A stretch of 64,000 bases of DNA from Bolinopsis microptera. Taxonomy: Eukaryota; Ctenophora; Tentaculata; Lobata; Bolinopsidae. How positions within the stretch are numbered: the first letter of the stretch is position 1; each line of letters begins with the position of its first letter. The translations under genes were made by a program, and so were the position numbers. Below the pieces are notes generated by a model. It had not been told where the DNA came from and did not search any database. It saw only the letters and a program-made list of their open reading frames with translations. Location: assembly GCF_026151205.1 (NCBI RefSeq), contig NC_087084.1, forward strand, positions 10,815,453-10,879,452, read 5' to 3'. This document shows positions 14,626 to 60,204 of this stretch, piece by piece.

Positions 14626-14852
14626 GACCGGCGGACCCACATTTGGCTCAACAAAGCGCGTATCTTTAAATAAAGTGAACTTTATTTTTTACTGTTACCG
14701 TTCAACATGAGCATTTCAATTTATTCGTTCGCTTGTTTTAAAACTGTTGTCAGTTTGTTCGAGTATAACAGTTATATATTTGCATTGAATGGAGAGTTAA
14801 TTTTAGTTGTAATAATTTAAATTTTCAGACCAGAGTCCAGAACTATTTGTCC

Positions 14853-21720: not shown

Positions 21721-22054
21721 TTCTCTGTAGAACTAGCGGTGACATTTATTGTAACAAAGTTGGGAAGAGGAGCATATATACGGTGGAGAAGTAACATATT
21801 TCAAAATCAACACATAGTGAAAGTGTGAGGACGATGTACGGTTCATGGTTGTGGAGTAAGATGCAAATTGTTATTAGCGTCTAAGTGCGTCTATTAGCGT
21901 CTAAGTGCGTCTAAGTGCAATAGAACGTAGCTTGTGTTGTACAATACCATGCAACTGATAACCGCTAATACAATTGAAAGTACCAATTATTATATTTGAA
22001 TGCCGAATATGATATACTTTACACAAAAAACATAAAATGGTTGTGTGTTATTCG

Positions 22055-22528
22055 TACTATTACAAAACTTTATATCCAGTTGATGGAGGATGGAGTGACT
22101 TTGGTGATTGGTCAAAGTGCTCTGCTGACTGTGGTGGAGGAACAAAGAAAAGGGACAGGACCTGTACTAACCCTGCACCTGAACACGAAGGAGCTGAATG
22201 CAAAGAAGAGGAATCAGAAATCCAGGATTGTAACACTTATGACTGTCTATGGCCAGATTTTAAAGTAACAGTAGTCGATAAGACATTCCCCATGCACGCA
22301 GGTATACGTGCGACCCTCACCTACGCTATCACTGAACTGACAGAAGAAGTAAATATCTTCTGGATGGATGAATTTGGCAGAGAAATATCGTTAGCACGGG
22401 AAAGTGAACCATACAACGAAACTACCCGTAGACAGGTGTTAGTGCTGAATTTACACCGGTTCGCCGACAGTACCTTCACCTGCGTGGTTACCGCAGGATC
22501 GACAGTATCCTACTGCTCAGTCTTTTGA
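22055..22528 (+). CDS. TSP1 repeat plus Ig-like domain (terminal exon of a secreted/surface protein)
   Basis: Following acceptor TATATCCAG the exon reads GGWSDFGDWSKCSADCGGGT then KKRDRTCTNPAPEHEGAEC and IQDCNTYDC, a complete thrombospondin type-1 repeat (W..W..C...CGGG...R.R.C, six cysteines). An Ig-like domain follows: WPDFKVTVVDKTFPMHAG ... TLTYAITELTEEVNIFW ... ADSTFTCVV, ending in a stop after SYCSVF. It may be the last exon of the gene beginning at 17563 or 18127, now interrupted by two transposon remnants; the phases do not prove it. Confidence 0.75.
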   Translation, partial: YYYKTLYPVDGGWSDFGDWSKCSADCGGGTKKRDRTCTNPAPEHEGAECKEEESEIQDCNTYDCLWPDFKVTVVDKTFPMHAGIRATLTYAITELTEEVNIFWMDEFGREISLARESEPYNETTRRQVLVLNLHRFADSTFTCVVTAGSTVSYCSVF

Positions 22529-34385: not shown

Positions 34386-34508
34386 ATGTCTAGATTTATA
34401 ATCCCCCTGGTGTTATTTCTCTCACAGACACACCCGGCTCTGTCTGTGTCGGGAAACTGTGCTAAAAACGTGCTCTGGGATACTGAGATATCTCAACATT
34501 TTAATCAG
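34386..34508 (+). CDS. Fusogen exon 1: start codon and signal peptide
   Basis: Residues 1-41. The ATG opens a hydrophobic leader ([13 protein letters not shown]) with a likely cleavage after residue 22, before the first ectodomain cysteine (GNCAK). The exon ends CAG|GTAATT in phase 0. A TATA-like stretch lies about 130 bp upstream, around 34254, next to a duplicated 32-bp sequence. An untranslated upstream exon cannot be excluded. Confidence 0.8.
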
Positions 34509-37500
34509 GTAATTATTCTTTAAAACAAATTAGGTTGTGATTTAATACAAGTTCTAACCAAATCAAGTATTTATTTGTTACTTAACCATATAAAGCTTTG
34601 ACGGATGGTCAGAAACATTGCTGCACTAAAATACCATGATAAAAATAATTCGCGGGTCTGGCGTGGCCCAAGAGAACAGCAAGAGTTGCAATTAACACGG
34701 CACTAGATATAGACTCTCGGTTTCGCCATTCGAGCTGAAAAATTTTGACGGGCACCATTGGTTTTGGCAGGTTTCATCTTTAAAAAAACGGATTGCACAA
34801 TAACAGATAGGTACACACAGATAATTAAACTAAGATGGCAGTGGTACCCACTGGCACTACCGTTAACACTTCATCAAATAACAACCTGACACCGACATTA
34901 CGGAGGTTGGCAAATTTAACACTTCCGCCATTATACGTTATTTGATCGGCCATAATCATTTATTTTTTGACCTTATTAGGAAATTTATTACGTTTATGAG
35001 CATGCCTGATCAGCCGTGAGAGTCGCGCTGTATAGTGTATAGCAGGATAAAGGGTCCAGTGAATAGTGATTACTCTACCGGTTTTAAAGCTCAACATTTA
35101 CTAACTCTTAAACTGTCAAGAATAAAAGTTAGCGTCGCGTCGGATATTGCAAGACAAGGTTCAAAGATTACACGTTTATCTCAAATGTCTTATGACAAGT
35201 AATCGCTAATTTAATTGCTCGAACCAATTAAGATTTGACACCTTGTAGTAACGAAGACAAACCCTCGCAGGATACCCAGAAATACGTATCAGAAACAAAG
35301 ATATCCTTCTCGATAGGTACTGATAATCCTGTGTTGTTATTGACTGCAGATAAGAAATTTCTTTAATTTTATCACAGATTTTTATAACACGATTTTTTTT
35401 GTTAAGGTGTGTGATCTAGGACTAGAGGTCACTCCGTTTGATTTATTTTTTTACGATCTGACACAATTATTGCATTGTATGATCTATAATTCTAATTCTT
35501 CTAATAACAGGTCTTCACGAGACGGTTTGTTTCGAGATAGAGGGTAAGAATGGTATGACAGAGGACCCCAGCGTGGATGGAAGACAGTATTTCTTCTCCT
35601 TTGAGGATGTCCAGACTATATTCAACTACAAAAACGCTTACACATTCGGGTTGGGAGAACCCAAAGTGAAATGTTTGTGTGATTGTCCGGGAGTTGAGAA
35701 CCATTGCAGTCCCTCCAGGTTAGTTCTGAGAAACGGTCATTGTGATGAGGTGAAATGTTGAACTAAGGGCCAGCTGACCGAATAATCTGTATGTCTAGCA
35801 ATAAATATGAGTATCTCAGTTCACTCAGTTTACTAAAGGTCCCGTACTAAAGTTCCCGTACTAAAGGTCCCGTACTAGGTCCCGTACTAAAGGTCCCGTA
35901 CTAAAGTTCCCGTACTAAAGGTCCCGTACTAGGTCCCGTACTAAAGGTCCCGTACTAAAGGTCCCGTACTAAAGGTCCCGTACTAAAGGTCCCGTACTTA
36001 AGGTCCCGTACTAAAGGTCCCGTACTAAAGGTCCCGTACTAAAGGTCCCGTACTAAAGGTCCCGTACTAAAGTCACTCTCCCCTGTCTGGAGAGTGGATA
36101 CGACCCAAACCTACACCATTCAAAAATTGAATATAGGCGTACAGTGTACACTGTACACGTACTAAAGCTAAAGGTCATGTAACTATAGTGTATAGGCAGA
36201 TTCCCAAACAATCTATACAATGGAGATAATAGCCAATAAGGTAACAATACTTGATGGTGTGTTCAGCGCAATAAAATGTTTCGCAGGATGACTTACAGTT
36301 ACAGTCATCAATGAGGGGATGACAATTAATTAATTGTACGTGTTGAGGCTGGGGGTGGGATATGTTTAATGTTTAATGTAATGTTTGAGGGGTCATAATC
36401 CTTTTAGCGTCTTAAAATGGTGTTTTCTCTGACTAGAGTGGGATATGTTTAATGTAATGTTTGAGGAGTCATAATCCTTTTAGTTCAAGGGGGCTATGTT
36501 TATGAGTCGCATTTAAACTTGATTTCTCTTGGAGAATTTCTCTTTAGACTCTTAACTTGCGAACAAATTGAAGCAGCAAACTTTAGGCTAGAAACTTTAT
36601 TGAATTGAAATAATCATTCCACGTAACAACGTCTTCTTCAGTTCTGTAATAAAATTGTTAAACATGTGTAAAAATTAACGACGGAAAGAAATTTAAAATA
36701 ACATTAAAACAATTTTTTTTTTACACCTGGTAAGAAGTTACAGGACATCTTCTGCCGCTCTCGTCCACTGGATAAGAAGACTTGTGACCTTGGTAACCCT
36801 AACAATTGTGAGATCTGCCCTAGACTCACAGGAACAACATGCTCAACAAAAGGAGCTATTTACTTAGTTACTTGCGAGTTATGTGGTAAGAGATACTGTG
36901 GGGAAACTGAGAGAAGCCTCCATGCTCGTCTGATGGAGCACAGACAGGCTGCTAGGAATCCTAGAGCACATCCAGAGAATGGGGTTGGACAGCACTACGC
37001 ATCTCTACATCCTAACCGAACCCCAGTTTTATCTTTTAAGTTACTTGATTTACAGAGTAAAACTGTTCGTAGAAAGATTGTAGAAGCGATGTATATATTG
37101 AGATTAAGTCCTGAAATGAATGATCGTTCTGAGTTGAGTTATTTGTACAAATATTTAGTCGATGTTTAACTAGTAAATAATGTATTGATAGGACTATCTT
37201 GGATAGTAACCATGACAACCGAGTTATCGTTGCTTAAGTGCTGATTTTATCATTAGTTTTTACACATGAACTGTGAATTCTGAACAACCAGTTTTATGTT
37301 TACTAATTAGTTTAGTATCATGAGTAGTACAGTATTTAGTTGTATTAGCTTACATTTCTTCTTGTCGTATTTTTTGTTGTTTTGACATTTTTTGCAATTA
37401 CATTTTTGGGTCATATTTCGTAAATTTTATTTCTCTGTTTTTGTTTTAATGTTATTTTAAATTTCTTTCCGTCGTTAATTTTTACACATGTTTAACAATT

Positions 37501-40500
37501 TTATTACAGAACTGAAGAAGACGTTGTTACGTGGAATGATTATTTCAATTCAATAAAGTTTCTAGCCTAAAGTTTGCTGCTTCAATTTGTTCGCAAGTTA
37601 AGAGTCTAAAGAGAAATTCTCCAAGAGAAATCAAATAATCCTTTTAGCGTCTTAAAATGGTTTTTTCTCTGACTAGTGGGTGTCTACCAGGCCATACAGT
37701 TATACAGTAACCATGTCGCTGAATTTATCTGTATGTATTCTTCTTTTTCACTATAATAAAGCCCTTTTTACCCTCAGGGAGAACTGTAAGGAGGATGGTA
37801 ACGCAGACAGCAGCTGTTTTAACTACTACAGTGATGATCAGTCAACTGAGGGGTGTGGGATCACATCATTTCTGGGCACTGGAGAGGTTAGTCAACTGAG
37901 GGGTGTGTAATCTTTGTGATCCTTGTGATCCTTGTGATCCCTGTGATCCTTGTAATCCTTGTACTCCTTGTAATCCTTGTAATCCTTGTAATCCTTGTAA
38001 TCCTTGTAATCCTTGTAATCCTTGTAATCCTTGTAATCCTTGTAATCCTTGTAATCCTTGTAATCCTTGTAATCCTTGTAATCCTTGTAATCCTTGTAAT
38101 CCTTGTAATCCTTGTAATCCTTGTAATCCTTGTAATCCTTGTAATCCTTGTAATCCTTGTAATCCTTGTAATCCTTGTAATCCTTGTAATCCTTGTAATC
38201 CTTGTAATCCTTGTAATCCTTGTAATCCTTGTAATCCTTGTAATCCTTGTAATCCTTGTAATCCTTGTAATCCTTGTAATCCTTGTAATCCTTGTATAAT
38301 CCTTGTAATCCTTGTAATCCTTGTAATCCTTGTGATCCTTGTAATCCTTTTGATCCTTGTAATCCTTGTATCTCAGGTTTGCTGTTCAATCAGCGTGGCT
38401 CCGACCTCCCAATCTAAATACACCGCCTTTGAGATAGCGAACCCGGTCACTAGATCTTTGTTCAGGATCGAGAAAGACAGCCCTTTTGAGTCTAGGTTTG
38501 TATTTTTCAAATACTTTATAACATTAATTTAACTAAATTTTTTCCGTACTTTACAGCAAAAATTAATGTTGATAGATATTACAATTATAAAATCTGATTG
38601 ATAAAATCGAATTTACGTCTTGGCCAAACTTTTTATTTCAGATTTTTTGCTTCAGATTTAGCATCTGGAAGTCCACATTTTGATGGGGAACTACAGATCA
38701 CATTTTTAAACCCCGGCAACGTGAATCCTCTTCCCAACGGGTAAAGATTGAAGTCATTAAATTATCTTTTAGAGTGTCTATTTTTACTTTTTTTACCTGT
38801 TATATTAGTTAGTATTATATTAGTTAGTATTATATAAGTTGTAGAGTAGTGGTTATTTTTGCAATAAATCTTACATTCGTGGTTGGCGTCTAAACTCACT
38901 CTAAAGGCCCTAGCACATGTAAGTTAGAGCAGCTTCACATAATTACAGTGCGCAATTCAATTTCTTTCTGATAATTTAGCTGGAATTTAAATCTGAATAC
39001 GTAACATGCAAAGTAAACTCAAGAAATCACAAACCTGTCGAGTTGCTGGATGAGTGATTGGGTAGTCCGAAGTTGGATAGTTTTCCAATAAAAGATTGGG
39101 GACGGGTTCTATAAACAAACAAACAACCACTGGCTGTATAAATACGAGCACAAAATATAGCTGATTGTATCTTCATAAGTAACTATATGTTACAACTAAC
39201 TAGACTGAAACAGAGCAATAAGACAAACCATTCTATGATTAATCAATACTGCAAATAGTAACTTATACAGTTAATCAGTGAAATAAAAAGTATGCATAGA
39301 ATAAACTTAAAATGTACAAAAGTTAAAATAGACAGGTCCATTAAACCATTTAACCTGCAACTACTGTCTGAGAACTAATTAAGACGTTGAATTAGTAGAA
39401 AAAGGTTATACAATATTAATATTGAAAATAAATGTTATTGATCAAATTAAAGGTACGGCCGCCCTGCAGTTGGGAAAAATGCAGAAACAAAAGCACAATA
39501 ATAAATTCAATCTTTATTTACTCATTTATTCAGACATGAAATAGCATGTAACATCTTGATCGATTGTTGAAATTACAAAAATGCTCATTATAGCTCAATG
39601 ATTATACAGGAACCATCTGGCTATGCGGGAGGGGGGGGGGGGCATCAGATGGGGGGGAGGCGGGCTTTCCTTTCGAGTTGTAGGTATTTTTAAGGAGCAC
39701 CAAATTTCAGGAGGGGGGCAATGGTAACGCCACTGGAACCATCCAAAAACCCACAAAAAGACGCTCCACGCCTCCACTGGTTTTACTTTACATTAAAATC
39801 ATACCAAATGAAATAGGATTTAAAAAACCTTACAACCCGGATTTAAAACAACAATAAACCTAAACATTGTCCGGAAAAGTATAAGGCAAATCGAATCAGA
39901 GAAATTCTGAAATTAGAGACAACTTTTAAAATGTATTCGTACAACTGTCAATATGATTACCACCATTAGTCACTAGTCAAAGTATGATCGGTGGACACTG
40001 GACAGATTGATCAATTGATCAGTGATTTGATCAATTATTGATGTATAATCGGTTTCTGGTGTATTTAAGGGGGCATACCCCAAAACAGTGGTTTGTGCCG
40101 TCCAGACCAAATGACCTCATAGGCAGTTCAGTGACCTTCTAGCGCATCGTTTCCACACAAAAAAAAATTATTTTGAGAATTCCCATTTTTGTAATCGAGC
40201 ATTTCCTGGTTAAGAGTGCAATTTTCGGAAAAAATTATTTTGTGGTTGAGACGCTATAAGTTAATCATTTCTTGCGGTATCGGGTTGAAATTTTGCTCGC
40301 CGTTTATTCACATCTATGTCAAGGTGTGTGTAAAATCTTGATATCGTATCTAAAAAGGCTGGTGTGTTATGAATTTTTAAAGTCAAAAAGCTAAAATTGT
40401 CCTTTTCAGGCTTATTTTAACAAAAAGTCAGTCAGGGAAGATCGGATTATTTGATACTTGACATCAAATTGTTCTCTGAATTCTGGCGCAGTTTTTGATG

Positions 40501-43500
40501 CCCTCAAAAATGTTTTTACTCATTCACCTTCTGATCTATTGGACCTCAAAGCCAAACAACAAATTTAAGCACATTTTTCGTTTTTTTATATTTACTGATT
40601 TTTCTAAAATTTTGATAGGAATGTGCTAGTGACTTTTTGAAGGGTGCAAAATAACCGCAACTAGCACATTTATATATAAGTTATGAACAACAAAACACCC
40701 TAGAATGCTTCCCTTTGAAGTTATGGGAGAAAATGTGATTTTTTATCTGCAAAGCCAAAAAATCACATTTTCTCCCATAACTTCAAAGGGAAGCATTCTA
40801 GGGTGTTTTGTTGTTCATAACTCATATATAAATGTGCTAGTTGCGGTTATTTTGCACCCTTCAAAAAGTCGCTAGCACATTCCTATCAAAATTTTAGAAA
40901 AATCAGTAAATATTAAAAACGAAAAATGTGCCTAAATTTGTTGTTTGGCTTTGAGGTCCAATAGATGAGAAGGTGAATGAGTAAAAACATTTTTGAGGGC
41001 ATCAAAAACTGCGCCAGAATTCAGAGAACAATTTGATGTCAAGCATCAAATAATCTGATCTTCCCTGACTGACTTTTTGTTAAAATAAGCCTGAAAAGGA
41101 CAATTTTAGCTTTTTGACTTTAAAAATTCATAACACACCAGCCTTTTTAGATACAATATCAAGATTTTACACACACCTTGACATAGATGTGAATAAACGG
41201 CGAGCAAAATTTCAACCCGATACCGCAAGAAATGATTAACTTATAGCGTCTCAACCACAAAATAATTTTTTCCGAAAATTGCACTCTTAACCAGGAAATG
41301 CTCGATTACAAAAATGGGAATTCTCAAAATAATTTTTTTTGTGTGGAAACGGTGCGCTAGAAGGTCCCTGAACTGCCTATGAGGTCATTTGGTCTGGACA
41401 GATTTGGGGTATGCCCCCTTAAGGTAAAGTTAAACGAACCAATAATTGACGTCAGAACGTGAGACAAGGAATTATCATCGGAATGTTAATAATAATTAAG
41501 TTCAACCCAATTAACAATATACATTCTATCGATATCACTGGATTCTACAATTTCAACACTTCCACTTCCAGGTTCATTACCTATTCTCTAAAAAGAAAAT
41601 GCGGTTTATAATATCTCCTGCACAGAAAGCACACTCCCCAAATGAATCAAGCAATACTCACTCAATACTCTGACAGGTGGTATTTTGGGAATGTCGGCTC
41701 CAAGGAAGCCTACACGAACGTGGAAGTGAACGGGCTGATAGACTGGGACGTGAACAAACTAGGCTGGTACAAGTACCAGAACGGCAGGTTCGCGCTCAGT
41801 CAGACGGCAGTGAAGAACGCGTTTAGTAGCTTCGTGCTGAACTGTGATGATAGTGCTATGAACGTCAGCTTTTACAGTGAAGTTAATGTGGGTATTTTTA
41901 TTTGATTTGAAAATTTCATCAAATAATACAGAATTGTAAAGCAACAAACTTAAATAAAAAGAATGGCAAAGAATGTTTATGATGGGGAAATGCTCAGACT
42001 AGTCAGGGCAGGCACAATTAAACAGGATTTTACTGTACTTTATGATTGGGGAAACCAGTAACATCCACGTTAGAACACATGTGCTGGACTCTTACTCTGG
42101 ATACAAATTAGATTTATGATGAAGATTGGTACACGTACTCTAGTTCGATACGCACTCCACTTCGACACATACTGTAATTCGACAAGCAATCGAGTTCGAC
42201 AATATTCTAGTATTGTCCAAAAATACCAGGGTATTGTTTACTACCACTTCGAAGGAGTCCAACAACAATAAGGAATTTAACTCCATTATTTGATTCCAAT
42301 TGTTGTTTTCTTAATTCGCCATGCCTAGTAAAGGTATAAGTAATATCAGCTCTATCGACCTTCGCAATTTGAAAAGAGCGACAATTCATGGTCGAAATTA
42401 TGTCCAGTCACGAGTATCGAACGTTCCGATGTACCAATATAGTACTTGTTAAAAAACATTCAAACAGGGATACAGTTAACAATTGACATATTACTTATAG
42501 TTAATCATTAGCTATAAGTTAACTAACCAGCGTAATTAATTAGATAATCAACTAACAACCTTGTGTAACTGTAATGCGCTACGTTTAACCATTTCTGACG
42601 TCATTATCATCACATTATGACATCATAAAATCAACGCGAATAATTCGACAGATGACCTATGCAAAGGCACTGGAAGAGTTTTACGCCTCTACTATCAGTA
42701 AAGCGGAGAGGGATGATGACGAGAGGACACTGTCGTTACAGTACTTTGACTTTTCTAAGATTAACGTCATGATTACAGGTAGGATAGCAAGTTTAGCAAA
42801 TTTAGCAAGTTTAACTAGTTTAGCAAGTTTAGCAAGTTTAACAAGTTTAACAAATTTAGCTAGTTTAGCTAGTTAAGCAAATTTAGCAAGTTTAGCTAGT
42901 TTAGCTAGTTTAGCTAGTTTAGCAAGTTTAGCTAGTTTAGCAAGTTTAGCAAGTTTAGCAAGTTTAGCAAGTTTAGCTAGTTTAGCTAGTTTAGCTAGTT
43001 TAGCTAGTTTAGCTAGTTTAGCTAGTTTAGCTAGTTTAGCTAGTTTAGCTAGTTTAGCTAGTTTAGCTAGTTTAGCTAGTTTAGCTAGTTTAGCTAGTTT
43101 AGCTAGTTTAGCTAGTTTAGCTAGTTTAGCTAGTTTAGCTAGTTTAGCGGCTGTAGGACTATTGAGCGGAGGACTGTTGAGCGTAGGACTGTAGGTCGGT
43201 GAAGGTCGGAAGTAGGACTGTAGAGCGGTGTCAAATCGCCAGGGTAGGACTCTAGAGCGGCCGCCCTTATAGATATCACAACATGAGGACTTTAGAGCGG
43301 TACGATCCTAAAATGAGGACTGTAGAGCGGTGGACTGTTGAGCGGTGGACTGTAGGCCGGCGAAGGTCGGAAGTAGGACTGTAGAGCGGCCCTCCCTTAT
43401 AGATCCCATAACATGAGGACTTTAGAGCGGTACCCTCCTATAACATGAGGACTCGGTTGAAAATTTGAAGATTGAACACTCAACGAAGCTAAGTTATACA

Positions 43501-49500: not shown

Positions 49501-52500
49501 TTGCACAGCTCCCCATTTAACCCTCACACACGATTTGGTATGATATTAAAATTTCAATAGAATTATGTCACCATTATTCTTTTGATTTAGCGGATTCAAT
49601 AAGTTGTAAGCTGCTTAGACCAGCTCAGACATCGATTAACAAACAAAACAAACGCTCAAATGTTGCAAATATCAGAAACAATTAAACATCTTACTATATA
49701 TAAAGCGAGACGATATATATATATATATATCTGTACCATTTTACTGACACCACGGCATCAACTTTAACGCGACTTTCCGCAAAAACCGTAAAAGATATAC
49801 AACTGAAATTTTTTTGACTGGGTCAAATGCTTTAATGGCCTTCAAATCAGCATGAAAAAATAAAAAATTGGCCAAGGAATAGGAGTTTAGAGCCCAAAAT
49901 TTGGACCCCCAAGTGGTGTCAAAAACGCGAATTAAATAGGTAATAATTATTTCAGTCTCTTGAGCCTTGACACCATTTTAGGGTTATACGGGTTCCTGCT
50001 AGTGAATATAATAGCAGAGCCCTGCTCCATCATTTCATCATGAGAATTTCCAAAGATGTAACATAAAAGATTAAGTTTCACACACAACTATATGGTGTGG
50101 GAAGACTGTGTAGACCAGGTACGGGTAATACAGATAATTGGTCATTATTCCTCATTATTACTGCTTTTATAATTAATGACCAGGTACGGGTAATACAGAT
50201 AATTGGTCATTATTCCTCATTATTACTGCTTTTATAATTAATGACTAAGTGCCTGTTAAGAGTTCCACCAAACTTTAGTTAGGAACGTGAACTAGCGGTA
50301 GCAAGTCAAACTAAAGGTAGTAACCCAGATTTACATAAGTTCTTAAGAATTCACGAAAAATTGCCGTTTGTTTCACTCTTTATATATCAATAAGGTTCAA
50401 TAGGTAGGTAGGTTCTTTACCGTTGATACCTTTCCATTCTGGTAGGGATCCAAAACTAGAAATTGCGTGAGAGTTATTAAAGTATTGTAACGAGAATAGA
50501 AATCTTACACACTATTATAGTCCGGAATGAAATGTGAATAGTATGGTGCACGTTTTCTATAACAAACTAAATTCGAACATTTCTCAACTTGCAAATTATC
50601 ATGCGGTCTGATCACTGCCGACACGCCAATTACACGGAACTGTACATAGACACCCATTAAAACAAACTCTCCACAATTGTATAAACACCCTCCTCACGAA
50701 ACAATGAGTTGCTAATAACGTCATCTTATCGCTTTCACTTGTTCAGCCATTGTGTAAGTTGAGATAATCGATTATAACGAATTATAAACGGAGTTCAGCT
50801 GAACACGAAGCATTGCCATGTAACAAACTCATCAACTATATGAACAAAAGTAATAGAGGAATTCCAATACGGTTAAGCTGTTTTTTATGAAGAGGGTATT
50901 GTTTCACAAGCGATTTTATGGTTCCCAAACCTGATGATATTGGTTTGGTCAGGGCTCGATTTGGTTTAATTTGAGTACATTTGACAGCTATAAATATGTG
51001 CGTCCCTATAGATTCACAGTTAGACAGACTCCTCAGTTCGACTAAAAAACCAAATATTAACTTCAGATGTGCAAAGTGATAGACAGACTCCTCAGTTCGA
51101 CTAAAAAACCCAATATTAACTTCAGATGTGCAAAGTGATAGACTCCTCAGTTAGACTAAAAAACCAAATATTAACTTCAGATGTGCAAAGTGATAGACTG
51201 TTCAGAAGAAGCCCTAATGGATTTCGTCCTCCCAGAGTCTGCGATAGACTACGAGGTAATCCAGAAACCCAACATATTTGGAATGGAAACTTGGTCGAAA
51301 TATATGAACCCTCTTGAATGGTAAGTGAAAAACTTAAGTAAACCAATCGAACAACTATGTGATATACTTATTCAGGGGAGTTATTCCACTCTCATTTTCA
51401 CGTGGAATCTTATCACTTGTTTCACTTTCACTTTCACTTTAACGTTCACTTTCGTTTTATCACACTCGACACCACCCCAGGTTTAACGGTATAGACAACT
51501 GGCAGGAGGGGGTGATAATGTTGATATCTATTGTTTTGTACCTAACCCTCATAAGTATTCTCGCCAAACTCTTCACTTGTTTCAAATGTGGGGCGGATCT
51601 TTGCAGTAAGGTAGCGGGCTTCTCATGCTGCTTCTGCTGCAAGAAAAAGAAGACGACCGATAAAAAGGATAAAAGAAAAGGTATGGAAACTTCACGTGTT
51701 GAGCACTGAGCACTGTCCACTTTAATTACGTTAATTTAATAAGAGAAAAAATATCAAGAGATTTTGAGCATAAAGAATTAAGAAGGTTATGTTTAATTTT
51801 ACACAGAAAAGTAGTAAATCGATGAAATCATTGTAATCATAAGACCGATGTTGCCCGCCGGCATTATTAAAATGCAAAGATAAGCAAATTGGACGGCTTC
51901 CAGCATTAATGAAAGACTGCATTTGCCACCAGTAAGTTTAGCACGGGAAAGAAATCTTACGATCGCATAAAAGTATGAATACAATAATGAGAATATACGA
52001 AATATATTAGAATTCTCACCAAACAGATAGCCGCACTGGTTAATGGTAGCCGCACAACGAAATAGAAAATAGGACACGATTAAAAGTTGGCATGCTTCGA
52101 TAACCATGATATTGAACTACGTGACCAATCCTGTGTTTATTATCAAAATCACGTGACGCACTATTGGCCAATCCCAGGCCACCTGCGCACTCTCCTGAGA
52201 TGCTTATCTTTTGTTTATATTTCTTATCGGCGTTACCGAGTTTGATACTCCCATTTGTACACGCAGATATCGGTGTATTTATCAGATAGAAGATAAGTCA
52301 CCAGTTTAACTCAGCGTGAAAGTTGAAATGAAACACACTTTTTAAAATATTTTACCGGCGTATCGTCTAAAATCACCTAATTTTTCCATTTTTACTATTA
52401 TTAACTTTTGGTCGCAGATAAATGGATAAACATTTATTATATAAGGACACGTTCATTGAAGTTTGAGGATATTGGTAAATTTCTAAAATAGCGTTTTCGA

Positions 52501-55500
52501 CGATAGTGGCTTAATTTTAGAATCTATTAATCTAGCATGTTCATAAGTTCTGAACATTAGCCACGTGACCCATACTCCCATATGCACCGCTCAGAAATAA
52601 AATGTATTGTTTTTAGGCACTATAATGTAAAAAATGTCACATTTTTGTGACATTGTTTACCATAGCTGCCCGATTAGCATTTTTTGGTCTAAAATATAGT
52701 AGATTAGGTCAATATAACAATTATGATTCAACATTGGTTAAAGGGCAGTGATCGAACGGCTTTAAGGCAATATTTCGTAAACTTTGTCACACTCAGAATA
52801 CGAGACCTCTTTTCTACTGTGAGGTGTCCTCAAAACCCTTTCAACTCATTATTTGATGGTTCTTCTGCCAACCATAGCCCTAAAATATGTTGTTTTGAAA
52901 AGTTAGCAAATATATTATACACTTGGTTATTGGGAAATGATGTAAATTCTGTCACATAATATGGAATTTGATATATAATCTGAATTTATATCTGATTTTG
53001 GTTCGGAAGGCGGGAAAACTCTATATAAGGAAGATACACGGATACAGTTGATTCAAGTATAGGGCAGTTGTTGTAAACATCGTCACAAAATGATACGACA
53101 TCGTAAATAGGTTACATTTTGCGGGAAAACTCTATATAAGGACCATACACGGATACAGTTGATTCAAGTATAGGGCAGTTGATGTAAACATCGTCACAAA
53201 ATGATACGACATCGTAAATAGGTCACATTTTGCGGAGAAACTCTATATAAGGACGATACACGGATACAGTTGATTCAAGTATAGGGCAGTTGATGTAAAC
53301 ATCGTCACAAAATGATACAACATCGTAAATAGGTTACATTTTGCGGGAAAATTCTATATAAGGACCATACACGGATACAGTTGATTCAAGTATAGGGCAG
53401 TTGATGTAAACATCGTCACAAAATGATACAACATCGTAAATAGGTTAAATTTTGCGGGAAAACTCTATATAAGGACGATACACGGATACAGTTGATTCAA
53501 GTATAGGGCAGTTGATGTAAACATCGTCACAAAATGATATACGACATCGTAAATAGGTTAAATTTGGAAACAATGATTATAGTATAGAATGAAATAGTCT
53601 GTGATTAACATAATATTACGTACATTATAAAATGGGCAGTGGTTTTTATATTTCCTCTGTATTAATCATTTCAGACTGTAATTAGGACTGTTAACGTGAA
53701 AGAAATTGTATCTAAATTTTACAATGACGTACGCGTATGTGACGAAATTTACATTTCTTGCCCCTATTTTGAAGAACCATACCTGGCCTCGGATAGAATT
53801 CAATGTTCTTCCTGGAATTATTGGTTGATTATTGTTCAGCAAATTATAACTCAAGTTTAACAATGCTGAGTTTAATTTTACTAAGTTACTGAAATGTGAC
53901 AGAATTCACCTTTTCTGCCCCAACAGTACAATAATTTCAATGTGATGAAAAATTGGCATGGGTTTCTACATTTCTTGTATAAATGCATTCCAACTATAAT
54001 AAGGACTATTGATATGAAAGAAAATCTATCTAAATTTTAAAATGACGTATGTGACGAAATTTACATTTCTTGCACCTATTTTGAAGAACCATACCTCAGT
54101 TAAAACTCAATTTTCTTCCAGGAATTATTGGTTGATTATTGTTCAGCAAATTAGAACTCAAGTTTAACAATGCTGAGTTTAATTTTACTAAGTTACTGAA
54201 ATGTGACGAAATTCACTTTTCCTGCCCCAACAGTATAATTTCAATGTGATGAAAAATTGGCATGGGTTTCTACATTTCTTGTATAAATCCATTCCAACTA
54301 TAATAAGGACTATTGATCATACCTCGATTATGATATAATGTTACTTTATCACCATGTCGATAAACTAGTTATTTTTCCAACAAATAGCAAATAAAGTTAT
54401 CATATTTTTTTTGTGACGAAATTTACAAATTTTTACCCTGTTCAGGTGTTGAAATTTATCCTATGTTAACATATCACTGCCATATAATAATTTATATGAC
54501 CGGCGTATGGTTGAAATATTGTTAATTGATCCATAGTACGTAATATAGGGTGTTTAAGTTGGTATACTAATATTTACTCAATTTCACACATGTGTTGAGA
54601 TATCATACAAATTTATGTGACTAAATTTACCTATTTCTGCCTTCTGTATTTGTATTTGCCTATAACAATGAAATATGTGAACAATTCCAAACACATTCAG
54701 CTCACAAAATAATGCTAGATTTTTCGGCATTTCTTGTCAGGATGTCATAAACATCCCTCATATAAATTTCTTAAATGTGTGACAGAGTTTACATGATGCT
54801 ACCATTTAACGAAAAAAGTCGCTAAATATGTAGATAATAGTCATATGCAACTATCCTATAAATTGGAAATTCAAAAATTTGGTCAAACACGGCAACAAGG
54901 GGTCCATATAAACTCTGTCACGTTTTTATAGTGTGACAAAGTTTACAACTCACTGCCGGCCGCATTTAAGCGATATCTTATCGTCTGATAAAGATATCGT
55001 TATGCGACAAAGTTTTATCTAGAGGATGAAACGATTATCCTAACCATGGAGGGTTTATATAGTGTCATAGTGTGACACATTTTACATCATCGTGCCATTC
55101 AGTAGGGTCACTAATATTTACCAATATCCTCAAACTTCAATGAACGTGTCCATAACTGAAACTTTAAAATGTAAACCATTGACGATGGTTTTAATAATGG
55201 TGGTTCAACTACATGGGATTTTGTTTTCATTTGTTCAAAAATTTCCTACCACTTAGTCTGAAGTCTCCTTAGGTATTCCTAATAGAAATAACATTAAGTT
55301 AATGTCATTAACCGCAACAGCAGCCTCATGGATTATAAACTGCCCGTTTATAAAAGATAAAGTGTTTATACATTTTTGTGTTCCGCAGTTATTAATACTA
55401 ATTAACTAAGTGATAAATCTAAACCAGGGAGAAAGGAAAACTATTATGAAGAAATAGAGTTTGATGCTCCCAGGGCTAAATCAGGACGAAGAAAAGGGTC

Positions 55501-58183
55501 TAAACTGCCTAATTCTCCAACTTTTTCGGTCAAATCAAGTAGATCAAATATCTCTCAGGTAAATTAACAGTTAATTGCCTGTACTTTACCTACTGACCAT
55601 TTCTATTAGCAGTAACCCGTCTAACTTTTAAATGGTGTCTTTATTTTATACTTTGTGATTATGACACCACTAACCACTTGGGGGTCCAAATTTCGGGCCC
55701 TAAAGTTCTTACTCTAATAGGCCATAAAAGCATTCGACCCAGCCAAAAAAGATTCAATGGTATCAATGGGTAAATCTCACGGTTTTTTTGCAGTAGAAAC
55801 TAACTGTTACATTTTAATAAAACATAAAAAGTTAGTACCATAAAAAATATTTTTTTAATCATTTCTCTGGCTACCTCCATAGAGACACAGAAAAGTAACA
55901 AGGAACCGAGGATTGGGTAACCCTGGTTACGTAGGATCCAGCTTCAAATCTGCACAGAGTAGTTTCAGGAGTGCACGCACTTCTTTTAGAAGGGCTTCTC
56001 AGCGGTCTAGGAGACTTATAGAGCAAGTTAGTGTAGTTTTTCGGGATGAGTTTTAAAAACAATTCGATGTTTTAATCTAAGAGCTAACATAATTCGATAT
56101 TTTAATTTAACATTTTACGCTCAATTTAATATTTTAAGCAATCTCAAATTTAATAATTTATTTAATTTTAATTTAATTGCTAAGATTAGCAGCGTCGTTG
56201 TATACACATTTATTATTTGTCATTCAGATCGTATCACAATCCTAACATTTCGACTTTAAATGTTAAAAGTCCTCTTCGCACGTGGGTATACCTTATCGGC
56301 CCTAAATATTCAGGGCCCTTAGTTTCACGGTCTTTCAGAACTCAGGCTTACTTAGTGCCTCAGACTTTTCAAAAGAAAGGTTAATAGTAGGTTAAGAGAG
56401 AAGAGTGAGGATCTGTCGTGAAGATCCTAATCTCTGCAGTATTGTTGGGTACCAATTAGTCGGGTTTTTGAAAAATGGGCTGATAAGATCGTTCAAAATA
56501 ATCTGTAATTATCCCTGCTTATTCAGACGCTGTCTTATTCGGACAGTGAGTTAATAAAGGAACCAGAACAGGGGAGTACAGTGATACTTAACACGTTCAT
56601 TGAAGAGGTGCGAGCATGGCCTGTATGTGTCGCGTCTGTTGCATGAGTCGCATGAGTCGTAATCGCATGAGTCGCATGAGTCGCATGGTGAATTAATTAT
56701 GATGACTTTATTATGTACTTTATTTGTCAATATTAAATATGTAACAGTTAGCACTTACTCCGAGGAAATAAAATTATAAAACCTATTTATAACAGAGAAA
56801 AAGTTTGATTAGAGTTTGCGCTCTGCAAGTACAAGAATCTCCTTACCTCGTAGTGAAGCATGGAATGCTTGATGCAACGAAAGTCGACTGAGTATCTAAT
56901 TATACTAAATTGTATTATATGATCAACAACAATCTTGAATGAATCAACAGCATAGTAAATATATTCAAGAGCAAGATTAACTCTGCGAGAAATTGCACGG
57001 AAATATGAACTAAATCGCTGTAATTTCAAATTAATAATTGTATCGTGTATTGAAGTACAAACTAACTAATAGGCGTCACCACTCACCACCGAGCAGTAGC
57101 TAAGACAAGATTGGTTTTATTGCTAGAATTTTCAGTGTTCTATTCAGAAAAATGTTGTATCTGATATTTACTATCTACTCATCACACGAATTCATTCATT
57201 AATCAATATGGATACGAATCTATAGACTTTGATACTGTCGGCACGTGACATTGATTGACCAATCAGCTTCAAGCAGCTACCGATCAAATCCATCAATCTG
57301 CAATGCCACGTGTCAGGACAAATGTGGTTCACGTCTCGACCTCCAAACGAGTATTCGAGTATTTCGTTCGTGATATTTCCTTATCACTTTAATTTTAACT
57401 TTCAATAGTTTGAATAATTGCCCGATACGTTGTCACCTTTATAATTAATTACCATTGGCATTGCCAAAAGTAAGTAAAATTGCAACGTTAGGGCCGTTAA
57501 GGTATACACTAACACAACTATTCATTACGTTATTATCTTTACGAATCTTCAACTGACTGACCAATGGAGAAAAGGGCTACTATAACACATCCGCTGCAAA
57601 AATTTTTCTTCGAAATTTCGAGCCCTTTGGATTAATTTTATTATACTGTTTTTAGCAGCTGCAGATTTTGGCGTTTTTTAATAATCTGTATAACTATCAA
57701 CATAATTCAAATTGTATTATTATTCATAATACCTCAGTTCGGTAAGAGAAAATACGAGCTGTTCCAGACTATGTGGAACGAGTACGGAATGCCTCCGCAA
57801 GACATCTGCCCAGAAGAGTAGGTCTTTTAGTAAATCTACGAGATGTTAATCAAATATTATTATCGTATTACTATTTCAAATCCAACATAAATGCTAGCTG
57901 ACAATATGAAATTCCATCTGACAACCAAGAAAGAGGATTAGAGAATTAAAATACAAAGAACTTCAGACTTTGTGAACCATTATCTTTGCTCTGCGCGGCT
58001 ATAATTAAACATGGAAGAATTTTCTATTTAAGCTAAGTGGTTCCGTACAGACTTGAAACCCAAATCTAGATAAATAAATCTTCATATAACATTTAGTACT
58101 GAGATTTGGATTTGGAGACCTTACTTCAACACACGTGACGAGGACGTTTGTCTAGATATCCCCTTTTCACTTTACTTTTACTT

Positions 58184-58214
<31 letters not shown>

Positions 58215-60204
58215 CATTTTCACTTTCACTTTCAGTTTCACTTACACTTTCATTTTAATTTTCACCTTTACTTTCACTTAACACGAGGTTATCACAGGGA
58301 CGGTGGAATGAGACCTCACTACAACATACGTGATGAGGAGGTGTGTCTAGATATTGACAGCGATGAGCGTTTAGATCAGAGGAACATGTTCACCGACCCT
58401 CATAAGCACAGTGAGTTATACTTATAAGTGTTGCTTTAATCCTGATTGTTTCACTTTCACTTAATTCACTTTCACTTGTTAACGTTTTTTAGATGGTGCG
58501 AGTCTGCGACATGTTTTTTGCAGGTTTAATCAAGAATATTAACAATATTTTTCTCCGCTTCAGAACGACAACAAAGCAGTCAACAAAGCAGAAGACCTCA
58601 CAAAGACAGAGCCCTCTCCCCCTCCTCCCGGTCTGAACGAGGATTCTCACCTGCAGTCCGGAGTAAACCACAGTACAGCAGCATGCCACACCGCCACAAG
58701 GCTAAGAAACATAGCAGGGATCATGATCGCAGCTTCTCACCCAGAGGGTGAGGGATTGTTGAAAATTAATAATGATTGAAAATGAAATTACATAAACCCC
58801 GATTCACCGTGGAGCTTGGAGAAAGAAAACATATTCAGCTATTCGCGATAATTCGATAAAGCGTGGTTCGTGGTAAATTGGGGTTGTGGTTGTTTACATA
58901 ATGTAAAATTTCAGATCAGAAGATCATGGCAAACTAACAATAGGGAAGCGAAAGGGAGAAAAACTACAAAAAACTCTAGATCACAGGAATCACGAGTAAG
59001 GGAATTACAGAAACTTTATTTGTTATGTTATATTATTTTATTTGTCCTATGTGAATCCACTGCTAAAAGCTGGTCGCTAAAAGCTTGATATCGTATTGAA
59101 ATCTCGATATTAAGCCTCGCTAACTCGCTTTTCAAAAATTAATTAGCCAGCAAGGTGGCAAATGGAATTGTTGGTTTTGGAACTAATTCAATTTCATGTT
59201 CTATCAACGATAATTTGGTGGTGAAAATAGTGCAGACAAGCCAAAATATTTGATGGACAACCAAGCACATTTGATGGCCAACCAAGCACAGTAAATATTC
59301 TAAGGTTCGGTTCATCAAAGATTTAACTTTTCTGAAAGAAATGTTAAATTTGAAGAAGTGGAGTACGTACCGTCCGCTTTAAATTGCGTGAAATTTCTCT
59401 TGAAGTTCACTTATGCTACCTTTTCGGCAAACATTGTGAGGTTTTATAATGGTCTTAGCGTCCACTGAGTGGTGTCAAAAAGTAGCATAATACAACTATA
59501 CGTGAACTTCAAGAGCAGCAGCAAGCAATATCACACGTCATAATTTCAGATATTAGCTACCTTTTTAAGCAATCATGAATTGTGATTTTGGTTTTTTCCC
59601 GTCCGAAAAAGGGCCTTTAGAATGTATCCAGCTTCAGCCCCGTTTCAACTTAGTGAAGCAACCATAATAAGCACTTAGCATAACTACTAGGCATTATTTG
59701 TGGTCTTACAGAGTTGATTTTTAGGCGAGACCTACCACGGAAATGGAAAGAAGAAGACAAAAATGGAAACACAGAGGATTCCTCAAGTACCAGCTCTCTT
59801 CAAGAGTAAGCAGACACACTTTTATTTACACTTTTATTTACAGTTTCACTTACAGTTCCACTTACATTTCCACTTACATTTCCACATTCACATTCACTTT
59901 CACTTTCAATCTCATTTTCACTTTGAACGCGTAATTTTCCATGATTTATCCGCGAAGATCTCATACTGCAAATATTTGATAACTCAAACTGTCAACTGAC
60001 TAAGATACTCTTCCTCTCAGATCTGACCCCATTAAGAACACCAGTGTGTACGAGAATGAGAGTGTGAAATTAGTCCGTGAACCTCTGTCAGACTCTAACA
60101 AGCATGATAAAGAGAGTGATAAGAGTGATATGAGATGTCCGGAGGTGGACATGTCCGGGATTGTGAGAAGTGATAATGACTGTAGTGACCTAGCTGTTGT
60201 TTAA
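34386..60204 (+). CDS. EFF-1/AFF-1-family cell-cell fusogen (whole gene, 21 coding exons, 900 aa)
   Basis: Spliced gene assembled from exons whose splice phases agree at every junction (2703 coding nt including the stop). Predicted order: signal peptide (residues 1-22), Cys-rich ectodomain (to about 511), one transmembrane helix (about 513-535), a Cys cluster, then a basic Ser/Arg-rich tail of about 365 residues. Family evidence: CLCDCPG (111-117), a CC pair (164-165), [11 protein letters not shown] (257-267), and NPLEW followed by NGI just before the membrane. These match the nematode fusogen EFF-1 as I remember it. EFF-1/AFF-1 proteins are class-II-like fusexins that merge plasma membranes when present on both cells. 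Sequons include N297, N305, N391, N427 and N439. The ectodomain has the family's usual length; the tail is several times longer than I recall for nematode members. HAP2 is a distant alternative, but its signature segments are not seen. The exon chain is inferred, not supported by transcripts. Confidence 0.9.
35271..35316 (+). CDS. Fusogen exon 2 (46 nt microexon)
   Basis: Residues 42-57, [16 protein letters not shown]. Acceptor CCTCGCAG, donor G|GTACTG. It is needed because exon 1 (phase 0) cannot join exon 3 directly without reaching a stop codon; this small exon converts phase 0 to phase 1 and restores the frame. It is the shortest exon and so the least certain of the ectodomain set. Confidence 0.7.
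35511..35718 (+). CDS. Fusogen exon 3: N-terminal Cys-rich ectodomain
   Basis: Residues 57-126. It contains VCFEIEG, then [18 protein letters not shown] and [13 protein letters not shown]. The phenylalanine-rich strand followed by C-x-C-x-C-P is the same order I recall from the EFF-1 ectodomain. Acceptor ATAACAG, donor CCAG|GTTAGT, phase 1 in and phase 2 out. Confidence 0.88.
35834..36071 (+). repeat. 14-bp minisatellite AAAGGTCCCGTACT
   Basis: About 17 units with occasional loss of the leading AAA. Lies in fusogen intron 3, about 115 bp after the donor. Confidence 0.95.
36519..37636. mobile_element. Penelope-like fragment between ~195-bp inverted repeats
   Basis: 36519-36714 and 37441-37636 are near-perfect inverted copies (TTGATTTCTCTTGGAGAA at the left end). 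They enclose the GIY-YIG coding fragment. ATAATCCTTTTAG occurs on both sides, so the insertion site is duplicated. The unit sits in fusogen intron 3. Confidence 0.85.
36720..37169 (+). pseudogene. Penelope-like retroelement GIY-YIG endonuclease fragment
   Basis: 149 open codons ending in TAA, no start of its own. [19 protein letters not shown], a Cys pair region ([12 protein letters not shown]), then [20 protein letters not shown] and LHARLMEHR: the GIY-YIG pattern (here IYL...RYCG, with R and E further on) preceded by a CCHH-like knuckle is the C-terminal endonuclease of Penelope-like elements. The RT domain is missing. Confidence 0.85.
37778..37886 (+). CDS. Fusogen exon 4
   Basis: Residues 126-162, starting RENCKEDGN and ending FLGTGE, with three cysteines. 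Acceptor TTTACCCTCAG, donor GAG|GTTAGT. It joins exon 3 in phase 2 and exon 5 in phase 0. The end of the exon (GTCAACTGAGGGGTGTG) is repeated just inside the following intron, which suggests a local duplication at the donor. Confidence 0.87.
37907..38372 (+). repeat. 9-bp minisatellite AATCCTTGT, about 50 copies, filling fusogen intron 4
   Basis: Units are nearly perfect; GATCCTTGT variants cluster at both edges. It occupies nearly all of the 490-bp intron between exons 4 and 5. The long open frames in every phase are repeat artefacts. Confidence 0.97.
38377..38495 (+). CDS. Fusogen exon 5: CC motif
   Basis: Residues 163-202. It opens [12 protein letters not shown] and continues [18 protein letters not shown]. 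The adjacent cysteines followed by a short strand and a (G/A)NPV turn correspond to the same position in EFF-1 as I recall it. Acceptor TATCTCAG lies directly after the intron-filling 9-bp minisatellite; donor TCTAG|GTTTGT. Confidence 0.88.
38642..38740 (+). CDS. Fusogen exon 6
   Basis: Residues 202-235: [20 protein letters not shown] and [13 protein letters not shown]. Phase 2 in and out. Acceptor TTATTTCAG, donor ACGG|GTAAAG. The following 2.9-kb intron holds the 1.36-kb palindrome, yet the codon split by the intron (GG+G) still joins cleanly to exon 7. Confidence 0.86.
40065..41422. mobile_element. 1.36-kb near-perfect palindrome in fusogen intron 6
   Basis: Ends TTAAGGGGGCATACCCC / GGGGTATGCCCCCTTAA; arms of about 660 bp meet near 40749 with only a few unpaired bases. 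Differences between arms are scattered substitutions. No coding capacity; foldback or MITE-type element. Confidence 0.9.
41677..41887 (+). CDS. Fusogen exon 7: [11 protein letters not shown] signature
   Basis: Residues 235-305, starting [24 protein letters not shown] at 257-267 is the strongest family signature in the window and matches the nematode protein as I remember it. It continues through FVLNCDD and a sequon at N297 (NVS); a second sequon, N305-M-T, spans the junction to exon 8. Acceptor CTGACAG, donor AAT|GTGGGT. Confidence 0.93.
42652..42778 (+). CDS. Fusogen exon 8
   Basis: Residues 306-348: [20 protein letters not shown], then [17 protein letters not shown]. Acceptor TTCGACAG, donor ACAG|GTAGGA. 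The next intron begins with the TTTAGCTAG minisatellite only a few bases after the donor. Confidence 0.85.
42783..43148 (+). repeat. 9-bp minisatellite TTTAGCTAG (left block)
   Basis: About 40 units, with TTTAGCAAG variants in the first third. Begins directly after the exon 8 donor. The same repeat resumes at 43985 in the same orientation. Confidence 0.95.
43149..43985. mobile_element. Foldback element inserted in the TTTAGCTAG satellite
   Basis: Left arm 43149-43537, right arm 43611-43985 inverted, 73-bp spacer. The arms are themselves built from repeated GTAGGACTGTAGAGCGG words, the modular subrepeat structure typical of Foldback transposons. Confidence 0.85.
43985..44233 (+). repeat. 9-bp minisatellite TTTAGCTAG (right block)
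   Basis: Continuation of the satellite beyond the foldback insertion, with TTTAGCAAG and TTTTGCAAG variants. Ends about 110 bp before fusogen exon 9. Confidence 0.95.
44344..44428 (+). CDS. Fusogen exon 9
   Basis: Residues 348-376: [20 protein letters not shown] and MFDKHSN. Acceptor CAGTTTCAG, donor ACAG|GTCGGA, phase 1 in and 2 out. In nematode EFF-1 this position is a beta-rich ectodomain stretch ending in a similar A-x-x-MF segment. Confidence 0.83.
45553..45689 (+). CDS. Fusogen exon 10
   Basis: Residues 376-422: [18 protein letters not shown] and [15 protein letters not shown]. Alternating hydrophobic residues suggest beta strands; N391-V-T is a glycosylation sequon. The G-x-x-x-G-x-(L/I) pattern corresponds to a strand pair preceding the domain III-like part of fusexins (inference). 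Acceptor CTACACAG, donor GAAG|GTACGG. Confidence 0.86.
45948..46048 (+). CDS. Fusogen exon 11
   Basis: Residues 422-455: [20 protein letters not shown] then [12 protein letters not shown]. Two sequons (N427, N439) and two cysteines that probably pair with those at the start of exon 12. Acceptor CCCACCAG, donor GAG|GTAATT. The 5.1-kb intron that follows carries two TIR elements. Confidence 0.87.
46749..47126. mobile_element. MITE with 26-bp TIRs in fusogen intron 11
   Basis: CCTTATCGGTCATAATTACC and inverse ending GGACATAATTGCC...; 26 bp with two mismatches. Subterminal AATTATGTCCGTG words repeat inside. Related words (TTATGTCCGTTCAT) occur at 13890-13950. Confidence 0.8.
47238..48321. mobile_element. 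1.08-kb element with 33-bp TIRs in fusogen intron 11
   Basis: Ends ATACTGCCGTTCCCTGAGA / inverse, then AAGGCAGTAAGTC; the words CCCTGAGAAAAGGCAGTAAGTC recur at 47430, 47500 and 48060. The interior resembles the arms of the 23.5-25.3 kb palindrome. Non-coding. Confidence 0.8.
48322..51024. other. Rest of fusogen intron 11
   Basis: Non-coding. Contains five GTTACTATG words (48712-48750), a SINE fragment near 49445-49545, dispersed repeat copy 2, and a 64-bp tandem duplication at 50117-50245. Confidence 0.6.
49733..49980 (+). repeat. Dispersed repeat family, copy 2 (fusogen intron 11)
   Basis: Close copy of 3040-3330. A preceding TATATAAAGCGAGACGAT is also found before the first copy (2757). 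Followed at 50117-50245 by a 64-bp tandem duplication (GACCAGGTACGGGTAATACA). Confidence 0.85.
51025..51196 (+). repeat. Tandem triplication of the fusogen exon 12 splice boundary
   Basis: Three units of 55-59 bp (GACTCCTCAGTTCGACTAAA...TTAACTTCAGATGTGC). Each carries a usable AG acceptor and the first coding bases. Confidence 0.92.
51181..51320 (+). CDS. Fusogen exon 12: membrane-proximal ectodomain
   Basis: Residues 456-502: [20 protein letters not shown] through the membrane-proximal [11 protein letters not shown]457 and C462 follow the exon 11 cysteines, as in EFF-1. The acceptor and first 16 coding bases occur three times in tandem (exon starts at 51067, 51126 and 51181); only the last copy keeps the frame open into the transmembrane exon. 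Donor GAATG|GTAAGT. Confidence 0.88.
51481..51680 (+). CDS. Fusogen exon 13: transmembrane helix and Cys cluster
   Basis: Residues 502-569. [11 protein letters not shown] leads into the membrane helix [19 protein letters not shown], followed by seven cysteines (535, 538, 543, 551, 552, 554, 555) and a KKKK run. Juxtamembrane cysteines beside basic residues are typical palmitoylation or membrane-trafficking sites (inference). Acceptor CACCCCAG preceded by CTTTCA repeats; donor AAAG|GTATGG. Confidence 0.92.
52441..55153. mobile_element. 2.7-kb element with perfect 36-bp TIRs in fusogen intron 13
   Basis: Terminal repeats 52445-52480 and 55116-55151 (GGACACGTTCATTGAAGTTT...). Inside are five tandem 120-bp units (53012-53573), a two-fold repeat of about 330 bp (53660-54310), and many GTGACRAARTTTAC words in both orientations. 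No coding region recognised. Confidence 0.78.
53012..53573 (+). repeat. Five tandem ~120-bp units containing CTATATAAGGA
   Basis: Each unit holds GCGGGAAAACTCTATATAAG, CGGATACAGTTGATTCAAGT and ATGTAAACATCGTCACAAAA. The TATATAAG word looks like a TATA box, but nothing shows promoter use. Confidence 0.92.
55428..55558 (+). CDS. Fusogen exon 14: cytoplasmic tail
   Basis: Residues 569-612: [19 protein letters not shown] then [26 protein letters not shown] offers possible tyrosine phosphorylation sites in an acidic context. Acceptor AAACCAG, donor CTCAG|GTAAAT, phase 1 in and 0 out. It is separated from the transmembrane exon by the 3.7-kb intron holding the 36-bp TIR element. Confidence 0.78.
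55640..55800 (-). repeat. Dispersed repeat family, copy 3 (inverse, fusogen intron 14)
   Basis: GACACCACTAACCACTTGGG and CCATAAAAGCATTCGACCCA correspond to the inverse of the first two copies; strongly diverged. Confidence 0.65.
55883..56026 (+). CDS. Fusogen exon 15: cytoplasmic tail, Ser/Arg-rich
   Basis: Residues 613-660: [20 protein letters not shown] then [14 protein letters not shown]. Very basic, with alternating serine and arginine. I chose acceptor CCTCCATAG because the AG six bases downstream would put the exon in a frame with an early stop. Donor CAA|GTTAGT, phase 0 in and out (144 nt), so skipping it keeps the frame. Confidence 0.75.
57738..57817 (+). CDS. Fusogen exon 16: cytoplasmic tail
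   Basis: Residues 661-687: [18 protein letters not shown] then PPQDICPEE. Acceptor TACCTCAG, donor GAAGA|GTAGGT. Without splicing the exon would stop at once at TAG, so use of this donor is required for the longer tail; a short isoform ending here is possible if the intron is retained. Confidence 0.75.
58115..58160 (+). pseudogene. Diverged duplicate of fusogen exon 17
   Basis: In one frame this intron sequence reads [15 protein letters not shown], against [15 protein letters not shown] in exon 17. The amino acid substitutions are conservative and no stop interrupts the match. A clear donor is missing: the copy runs straight into CTTTCA repeats. I read it as a dead or cryptic duplicate exon. 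Confidence 0.7.
58298..58410 (+). CDS. Fusogen exon 17: cytoplasmic tail
   Basis: Residues 687-725: [20 protein letters not shown] then [17 protein letters not shown]. Acceptor ATCACAG, donor CACA|GTGAGT. A second, diverged copy of its core lies about 190 bp upstream in the preceding intron. Confidence 0.78.
58564..58747 (+). CDS. Fusogen exon 18: cytoplasmic tail, RS-like
   Basis: Residues 725-786. [19 protein letters not shown], then [20 protein letters not shown]: rich in Arg, Ser, His and Gln, probably disordered. Acceptor CGCTTCAG, donor GAGG|GTGAGG. Such arginine/serine stretches could bind RNA, acidic lipid or kinases; nothing in the sequence decides between these. Confidence 0.75.
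58915..58995 (+). CDS. Fusogen exon 19: cytoplasmic tail (81 nt cassette)
   Basis: Residues 786-813: [19 protein letters not shown] then KTLDHRNHE. Phase 2 at both ends and 81 nt long, exactly like exon 20, so it can be skipped without frameshift. Acceptor AATTTCAG, donor CACGA|GTAAGG. Confidence 0.72.
59725..59805 (+). CDS. Fusogen exon 20: cytoplasmic tail (81 nt cassette)
   Basis: Residues 813-840: [20 protein letters not shown] then STSSLQ. Phase 2 in and out. Acceptor GATTTTTAG, donor CAAGA|GTAAGC. Another reading frame is also open across it, but only this one continues from exon 19 into either terminal exon. Confidence 0.68.
60021..60204 (+). CDS. Fusogen exon 21: terminal exon A
   Basis: Residues 840-900 and stop [23 protein letters not shown], then a Ser/Asp/Lys-rich end finishing SDLAVV. 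Acceptor CCTCTCAG. It contains no phase-2 donor that could join the downstream exon at 60927, so it reads as a true last exon. An AATAAA lies at 60576-60581. Confidence 0.75.

Follow-up and report, generated by a model that had tools for sequence, protein, structure and literature searches.

The locus raises two questions: whether a gene for a cell fusogen of the EFF-1/AFF-1 type is present in an animal other than a nematode and, if so, what its protein would do there. Few animal proteins are proven cell–cell fusogens; EFF-1 and AFF-1 are two of them, and the functional work that we found on their family (FF, somatic fusexins; Pfam EFF-AFF, PF14884) concerns nematodes; the original report of the family is said to have appeared in Science in 2011. 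The window, by which we mean the whole 64 kb stretch of DNA analysed, had been read in an earlier note as containing such a gene in 21 exons, with an unusually long cytoplasmic tail.

The gene from start codon to membrane helix

Pieces of an EFF-1-like protein are visible on three-frame reading of positions 34386–60204. Two lone ORFs match Pfam EFF-AFF (curated cut-off 25 bits), one with E = 1.7e-11 (43.9 bits) and the other with E = 1.9e-5 (23.9 bits, slightly below the cut-off); a third gave E = 0.1. The ectodomain exons were joined by splice-aware alignment with three paralogues as guides, and exon 1 was added afterwards. The 13 exons between 34386 and 51680 are consistent in phase, with GT and AG at 12 of 12 joins:

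Exon 1, 34386..34508, + strand: start codon and signal-like peptide, 41 residues; in-phase join to exon 2 with a GT donor
Exon 2, 35271..35316, + strand: guided alignment and phase; paralogue L010 has a matching QDTKRYTEETQVHFNIGL
Exon 3, 35511..35718, + strand: Cys-rich CLCDCPG region; the surrounding ORF alone matches EFF-AFF (E 1.7e-11, 43.9 bits)
Exon 4, 37778..37886, + strand: guided alignment, in-phase join
Exon 5, 38377..38495, + strand: guided alignment, in-phase join
Exon 6, 38642..38740, + strand: guided alignment, in-phase join
Exon 7, 41677..41887, + strand: 11-residue motif at 41741; EFF-AFF match of its frame E 1.9e-5, 23.9 bits
Exon 8, 42652..42778, + strand: guided alignment, in-phase join
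Exon 9, 44338..44428, + strand: guided alignment, in-phase join
Exon 10, 45589..45689, + strand: guided alignment, in-phase join
Exon 11, 45948..46048, + strand: first Cys of an extra pair
Exon 12, 51181..51320, + strand: second Cys of the extra pair and membrane-proximal NPLEW (51307)
Exon 13, 51481..51680, + strand: transmembrane helix and beginning of the tail

The guided alignment also proposed a 6-base microexon at 47258–47263; it was dropped, since a direct join of 46048 to 51181 keeps the phase and paralogue L010 has no such exon there. A tandem repeat with a 55/59-base unit in about three copies (51021–51199) includes the acceptor and the start of exon 12 and so repeats the splice site a short distance upstream. 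The DNA patterns for the 11-residue motif (41741) and for NPLEW (51307) would be expected by chance 0.03 and 0.02 times, respectively.

Carried through to the stop codon, the best-scoring chain spans 34386–60204 on the + strand and encodes 871 residues in 21 exons. The EFF-AFF gene at this position is real. The number of exons, the start at 34386 and the stop at 60204 proposed in the earlier note were all reproduced by this chain; the proposed length of 900 residues was not exactly reproduced (871 in the best chain, 885 and 890 in forced alternatives). By sequence and simple hydropathy the protein has type I topology, with a signal-like start, an ectodomain, one strongly hydrophobic helix and a cytoplasmic tail, and the Cys-rich ectodomain, 11-residue motif, NPLEW and single helix noted previously were all found again, as was a signal-like start in place of the proposed signal peptide.

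Assignment to the EFF-1/AFF-1 family, also proposed at the outset, is strongly supported by homology. The search of the spliced protein against PF14884 that the earlier note had suggested returned a match over the entire profile (488-letter joined protein, positions 1–467 of 467, E = 2.7e-53, 181.6 bits). With phmmer, Caenorhabditis elegans EFF-1A was matched with E = 7e-25 for 4cyl (residues 9–484 against 63–577) and E = 3.6e-21 for 4ojc, the identity being 23–24% (108/460 and 110/449 in two alignments). Within the aligned stretch 13 of the 16 EFF-1A cysteines are kept, and the three unmatched cysteines are found within or close to the membrane-proximal part and the helix. In a 13-row alignment, ten N-terminal Cys columns and one central Cys column are kept in nearly all of the rows that cover them. 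An additional pair of cysteines (386 and 412 of the 488-letter sequence) is present in 11 of 11 covering ctenophore rows, a count that leaves out paralogue L007, which has a gap in this region, and is absent from EFF-1A. The two cysteines are predicted to form an additional disulphide.

Other features of the window, within and outside the introns of the gene, are the following:

GIY-YIG-like ORF, 36708..37166, + strand: outside the protein, in the intron after exon 3; PF01541 E 7.2e-4, 20.2 bits, below the cut-off of 22.6; we presume that it may come from a Penelope-like element
Intronic minisatellites with a 9-base unit, about 28 to 51 copies each: 37906-38370, 42785-43148 and 43985-44234
Myb/SANT-like ORF (− strand) beside a DDE_Tnp_4 transposase ORF (+ strand), 7449-10558: a pair that we take to resemble a Harbinger-type element
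Sulfotransferase family 2 ORF, 14769-15896
ORF with a thrombospondin type 1 domain, 22013-22525

An Rfam search of the window gave no match.

The cytoplasmic tail

Beyond the helix the exons were derived without a homology guide, from codon usage and splice signals, by a dynamic-programming chain:

Probable tail exon, 55428..55558, + strand: in every chain of the main and forced runs
Probable tail exon, 55883..56026, + strand: divided into two smaller ones at both of the lower intron penalties
Probable tail exon, 56527..56607, + strand: codon-usage and splice chain
Probable tail exon, 57738..57817, + strand: codon-usage and splice chain
Tail exon, 58298..58410, + strand: donor at 58340 (best-scoring chain) or 58410
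Tail exon, 58564..58747, + strand: reading frame ambiguous
Probable tail exon, 59712..59805, + strand: acceptor at 59712 or 59725
Last exon with stop codon, 60021..60204, + strand: end of the chain at all but the lowest penalty

The long tail scores as coding: it reaches 48.4, whereas the reverse strand reaches 8.9 and the highest of 25 first-order Markov shuffles 12.2. By the same method the two strands of the long intron (46060–51180) yield 4.0 and 11.3, and four further regions of the window range from 6.3 to 73.4, several of the high scorers containing ORFs with Pfam matches. The chain has eight tail exons at the two higher intron penalties and smaller, more numerous exons at the lower ones, and at the lowest penalty it stops at 60219 instead of 60204. 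Forcing the donor at 58410 gives a protein of 885 residues with a score of 56.9, compared with 61.4 for the best chain; forcing in addition the Ser/Arg-rich frame at 58564 gives 890 residues and a score of 48.8. The tail past the helix is 348 residues long in the best chain and 14 or 19 residues longer in these alternatives. Because the chain is not unique, and because the codon table (18 ORFs, 33,504 bases before duplicate removal, many of them receptors) may be biased against disordered tails, we give the length as a range of about 348–367 residues, with the exact internal exons uncertain. The pI of 8.65 (best chain) makes the tail basic. The 365-residue basic tail of the earlier note thus stands as to its charge and its stop at 60204, and its exact length was not reproduced (348 in the best chain). 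A diverged duplicate of the tail exon segment 58312–58354 is found at 58117–58159, each encoding 15 residues.

Aligned on the unspliced tail of L019, the window tail scored 138.5 versus 117.4 and 113.6 versus 86.6 for a reversed-tail control, a modest margin, and the exons picked differ from those of the codon-usage chain; tail pieces matched loci L001–L011 weakly (best E = 0.010). Past the helix, L001 has 297 residues and L019 has 363, each in one ORF, while L002 has 208, L004 has 77 and L008 has 36. Since the tails of L001 and L019 lie in single ORFs, long tails are real in the FF family of this genome, and they are variable; an NCBIfam search of L001 and of the last L019 exon found no match. 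These long single-ORF tails are natural variants with which the intracellular control of a fusogen could be studied. The earlier note had taken tail-based regulation to be undescribed for the nematode proteins; this point falls, as an influence of the EFF-1A cytoplasmic domain on fusion is already in print (excerpt of PMC4723337).

The host genome and its FF genes

The glutamate receptors of the genome place the host, very probably, among the ctenophores and close to Mnemiopsis, in agreement with the earlier description of the fusogen as non-nematode. A stretch of the Mnemiopsis leidyi receptor ML032222a gave 27 matches in the genome, three with 75–80% identity and the rest with 33–56%; one of these three, receptor L015, scores 407 bits against ML032222a versus 226 bits against 4zdm and 243 bits against kainate receptor 2. 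We take ML032222a to be from Mnemiopsis and 4zdm from Pleurobrachia. Clusters of glutamate-receptor genes on contigs C3, C6, C8 and C12 account for 32 profile matches, 22 of which lie in ORFs of more than 400 residues. The genome searched comprises 264.65 Mb in 232 contigs; the receptors were used for its placement because a search of the assembly for cytochrome oxidase I (PF00115) gave no match. For Bolinopsis microptera about 254 Mb in 13 chromosome-scale scaffolds is reported, and n = 13 is stated as ancestral for Hormiphora and Bolinopsis (excerpt of PMC10232365).

Searching the contigs with the Pfam EFF-AFF profile gave 13 matches at ten loci, and the window protein as query added two (C7:13.387–13.391 Mb and C1:1.042 Mb); queries with L004, L003 and L008 found no further loci in the genome. 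There are therefore at least 12 EFF-AFF loci, the window gene included, and all 12 pass the Pfam cut-off, eight at 77 to 199 bits and four at 54 to 240 bits. The eleven others are L001, L002, L003, L004, L006, L007, L009, L010, L011, L019 and L020. The first four are unspliced through the ectodomain and helix; by the exon models built in this analysis L006 has one intron and L009, L010, L011, L019 and L020 have several. L007 adjoins L003, and its ORF lacks much of the membrane-near ectodomain; it may be degenerate. The window gene groups with L010 and L019 (support 95/97; identities 206/484 and 195/447) and then with L001 and L002 (88/94). Support at the deep forks is weak and the EFF-1A branch is long, so the tree is not used to place the root or to judge whether the ctenophore copies are a single clade.

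The intron positions hardly coincide among the paralogues. In one alignment the window gene, with 12 introns, and L019, with 13, have two exact positions in common. Six spliced members were mapped, and none of their 14 remaining pairings has an exact coincidence; in one of these, the window gene and L009, two introns of equal phase are no more than four columns apart. The pattern points to separate intron gains in a family that had few, or else to bulk loss. It is a lead only, as the paralogue exon models are our own constructs and some of the short L019 exons are doubtful.

The unspliced copies, together with the existence of class II fusogens in viruses (excerpt of PMC8784728), might be taken to mean that the window gene is not a host gene but the envelope gene of a virus or transposon, captured recently. 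We consider this highly improbable: the window copy has 12 introns ahead of its tail, L001, used as query in one scan of viral contigs, had no relative there, and intronless FF copies are not special in a genome where 22 of the 32 glutamate-receptor matches also lie in ORFs of more than 400 residues.

Proposed action and relation to known fusogens

The reading that we prefer, with a probability of roughly 0.8, is that the window protein is a type I membrane protein of the FF family in a ctenophore and acts like the nematode FF proteins. These are needed on both membranes and end as trimers (excerpts of PMC4050280 and PMC8784728). By analogy, we infer that the window protein would fuse cells: its ectodomain, to which homology assigns a three-domain, class-II-like fold, would meet a partner in trans from the opposite membrane, trimerise and draw the two plasma membranes together, leaving a lasting cytoplasmic bridge between the cells. 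The tail, which is long, variable and rich in Ser and Arg, probably controls placement and turnover, given the influence of the EFF-1A cytoplasmic domain on fusion. It would also govern surface delivery and endocytosis, acting through kinases, adaptors or cytoskeletal elements that bind to it. The paralogues would act in different tissues or at different stages.

A conserved ectodomain fold can outlast the loss of fusion, and the window protein might instead be an FF-family protein that works in homotypic adhesion or exoplasmic scission, with a paralogue carrying out fusion. The at least 12 diverged loci leave scope for new functions, the identity to EFF-1A is just 23–24% and a role of AFF-1 in endocytic scission has been reported (excerpt of PMC5931541); the full-length match and the retention of the cysteines and the membrane-proximal segment argue the other way, and we judge this alternative unlikely. 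It is quite unlikely that the protein is a gamete fusogen and not a somatic one, given that EFF-1 and AFF-1 act in somatic tissues (excerpt of PMC9259645). A HAP2 profile found no match in the genome, which might have favoured a gametic role, but it likewise found none in any of the 14 control genomes and so says nothing about absence.

With these FF genes, active fusion of ctenophore cells, perhaps including neurons, becomes testable. Mnemiopsis has a syncytial nerve net, for which Burkhardt et al. ask whether it arises by incomplete division of neurons or by fusion of neurites (excerpt of PMC7617566); the at least 12 FF loci are candidate proteins for this question. One possible, though doubtful, scenario is that of this large and diversified set (at least 12 loci) one or more members, controlled by the tail, would make the nerve net a syncytium through active fusion of neurites and not through incomplete division, in a family that grew from intron-poor copies gaining introns independently.

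What is new here is how large the FF family is, which was unexpected, and what this means for the question of the syncytial nerve net. Among the matches listed in a search of titles and abstracts, none dealt with a ctenophore FF family of several genes; most subscription journals lie outside the coverage, so that this is weak evidence of novelty. Excerpts of PMC8987731, PMC9816575 and PMC10730927 treat EFF-1 or fusogens in general or via cited work and contain no ctenophore FF gene. The presence of the family outside nematodes is already on record: members are listed in other nematodes, a few arthropods, a ctenophore, a chordate and a protist (excerpt of PMC4723337).

With HAP2/GCS1 and the class II viral fusogens (fusexins) the window protein would have the superfamily fold in common, by way of EFF-1 (excerpt of PMC8784728). 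The tip loop of EFF-1 itself is acidic rather than hydrophobic (excerpt of PMC4050280). The closest comparison is with C. elegans EFF-1A (4cyl and 4ojc), with which the window protein shares the whole ectodomain, the cysteine framework, the membrane-proximal NP-x-x-W segment and the single helix. It differs in its sequence, at 23–24% identity, in the extra Cys pair, situated where the ectodomain approaches the membrane, and in a tail that is about four times longer (∼348–367 residues past the helix, compared with ∼80 for EFF-1A as estimated from a 658-residue chain, possibly including tags, that aligns to residue 577).
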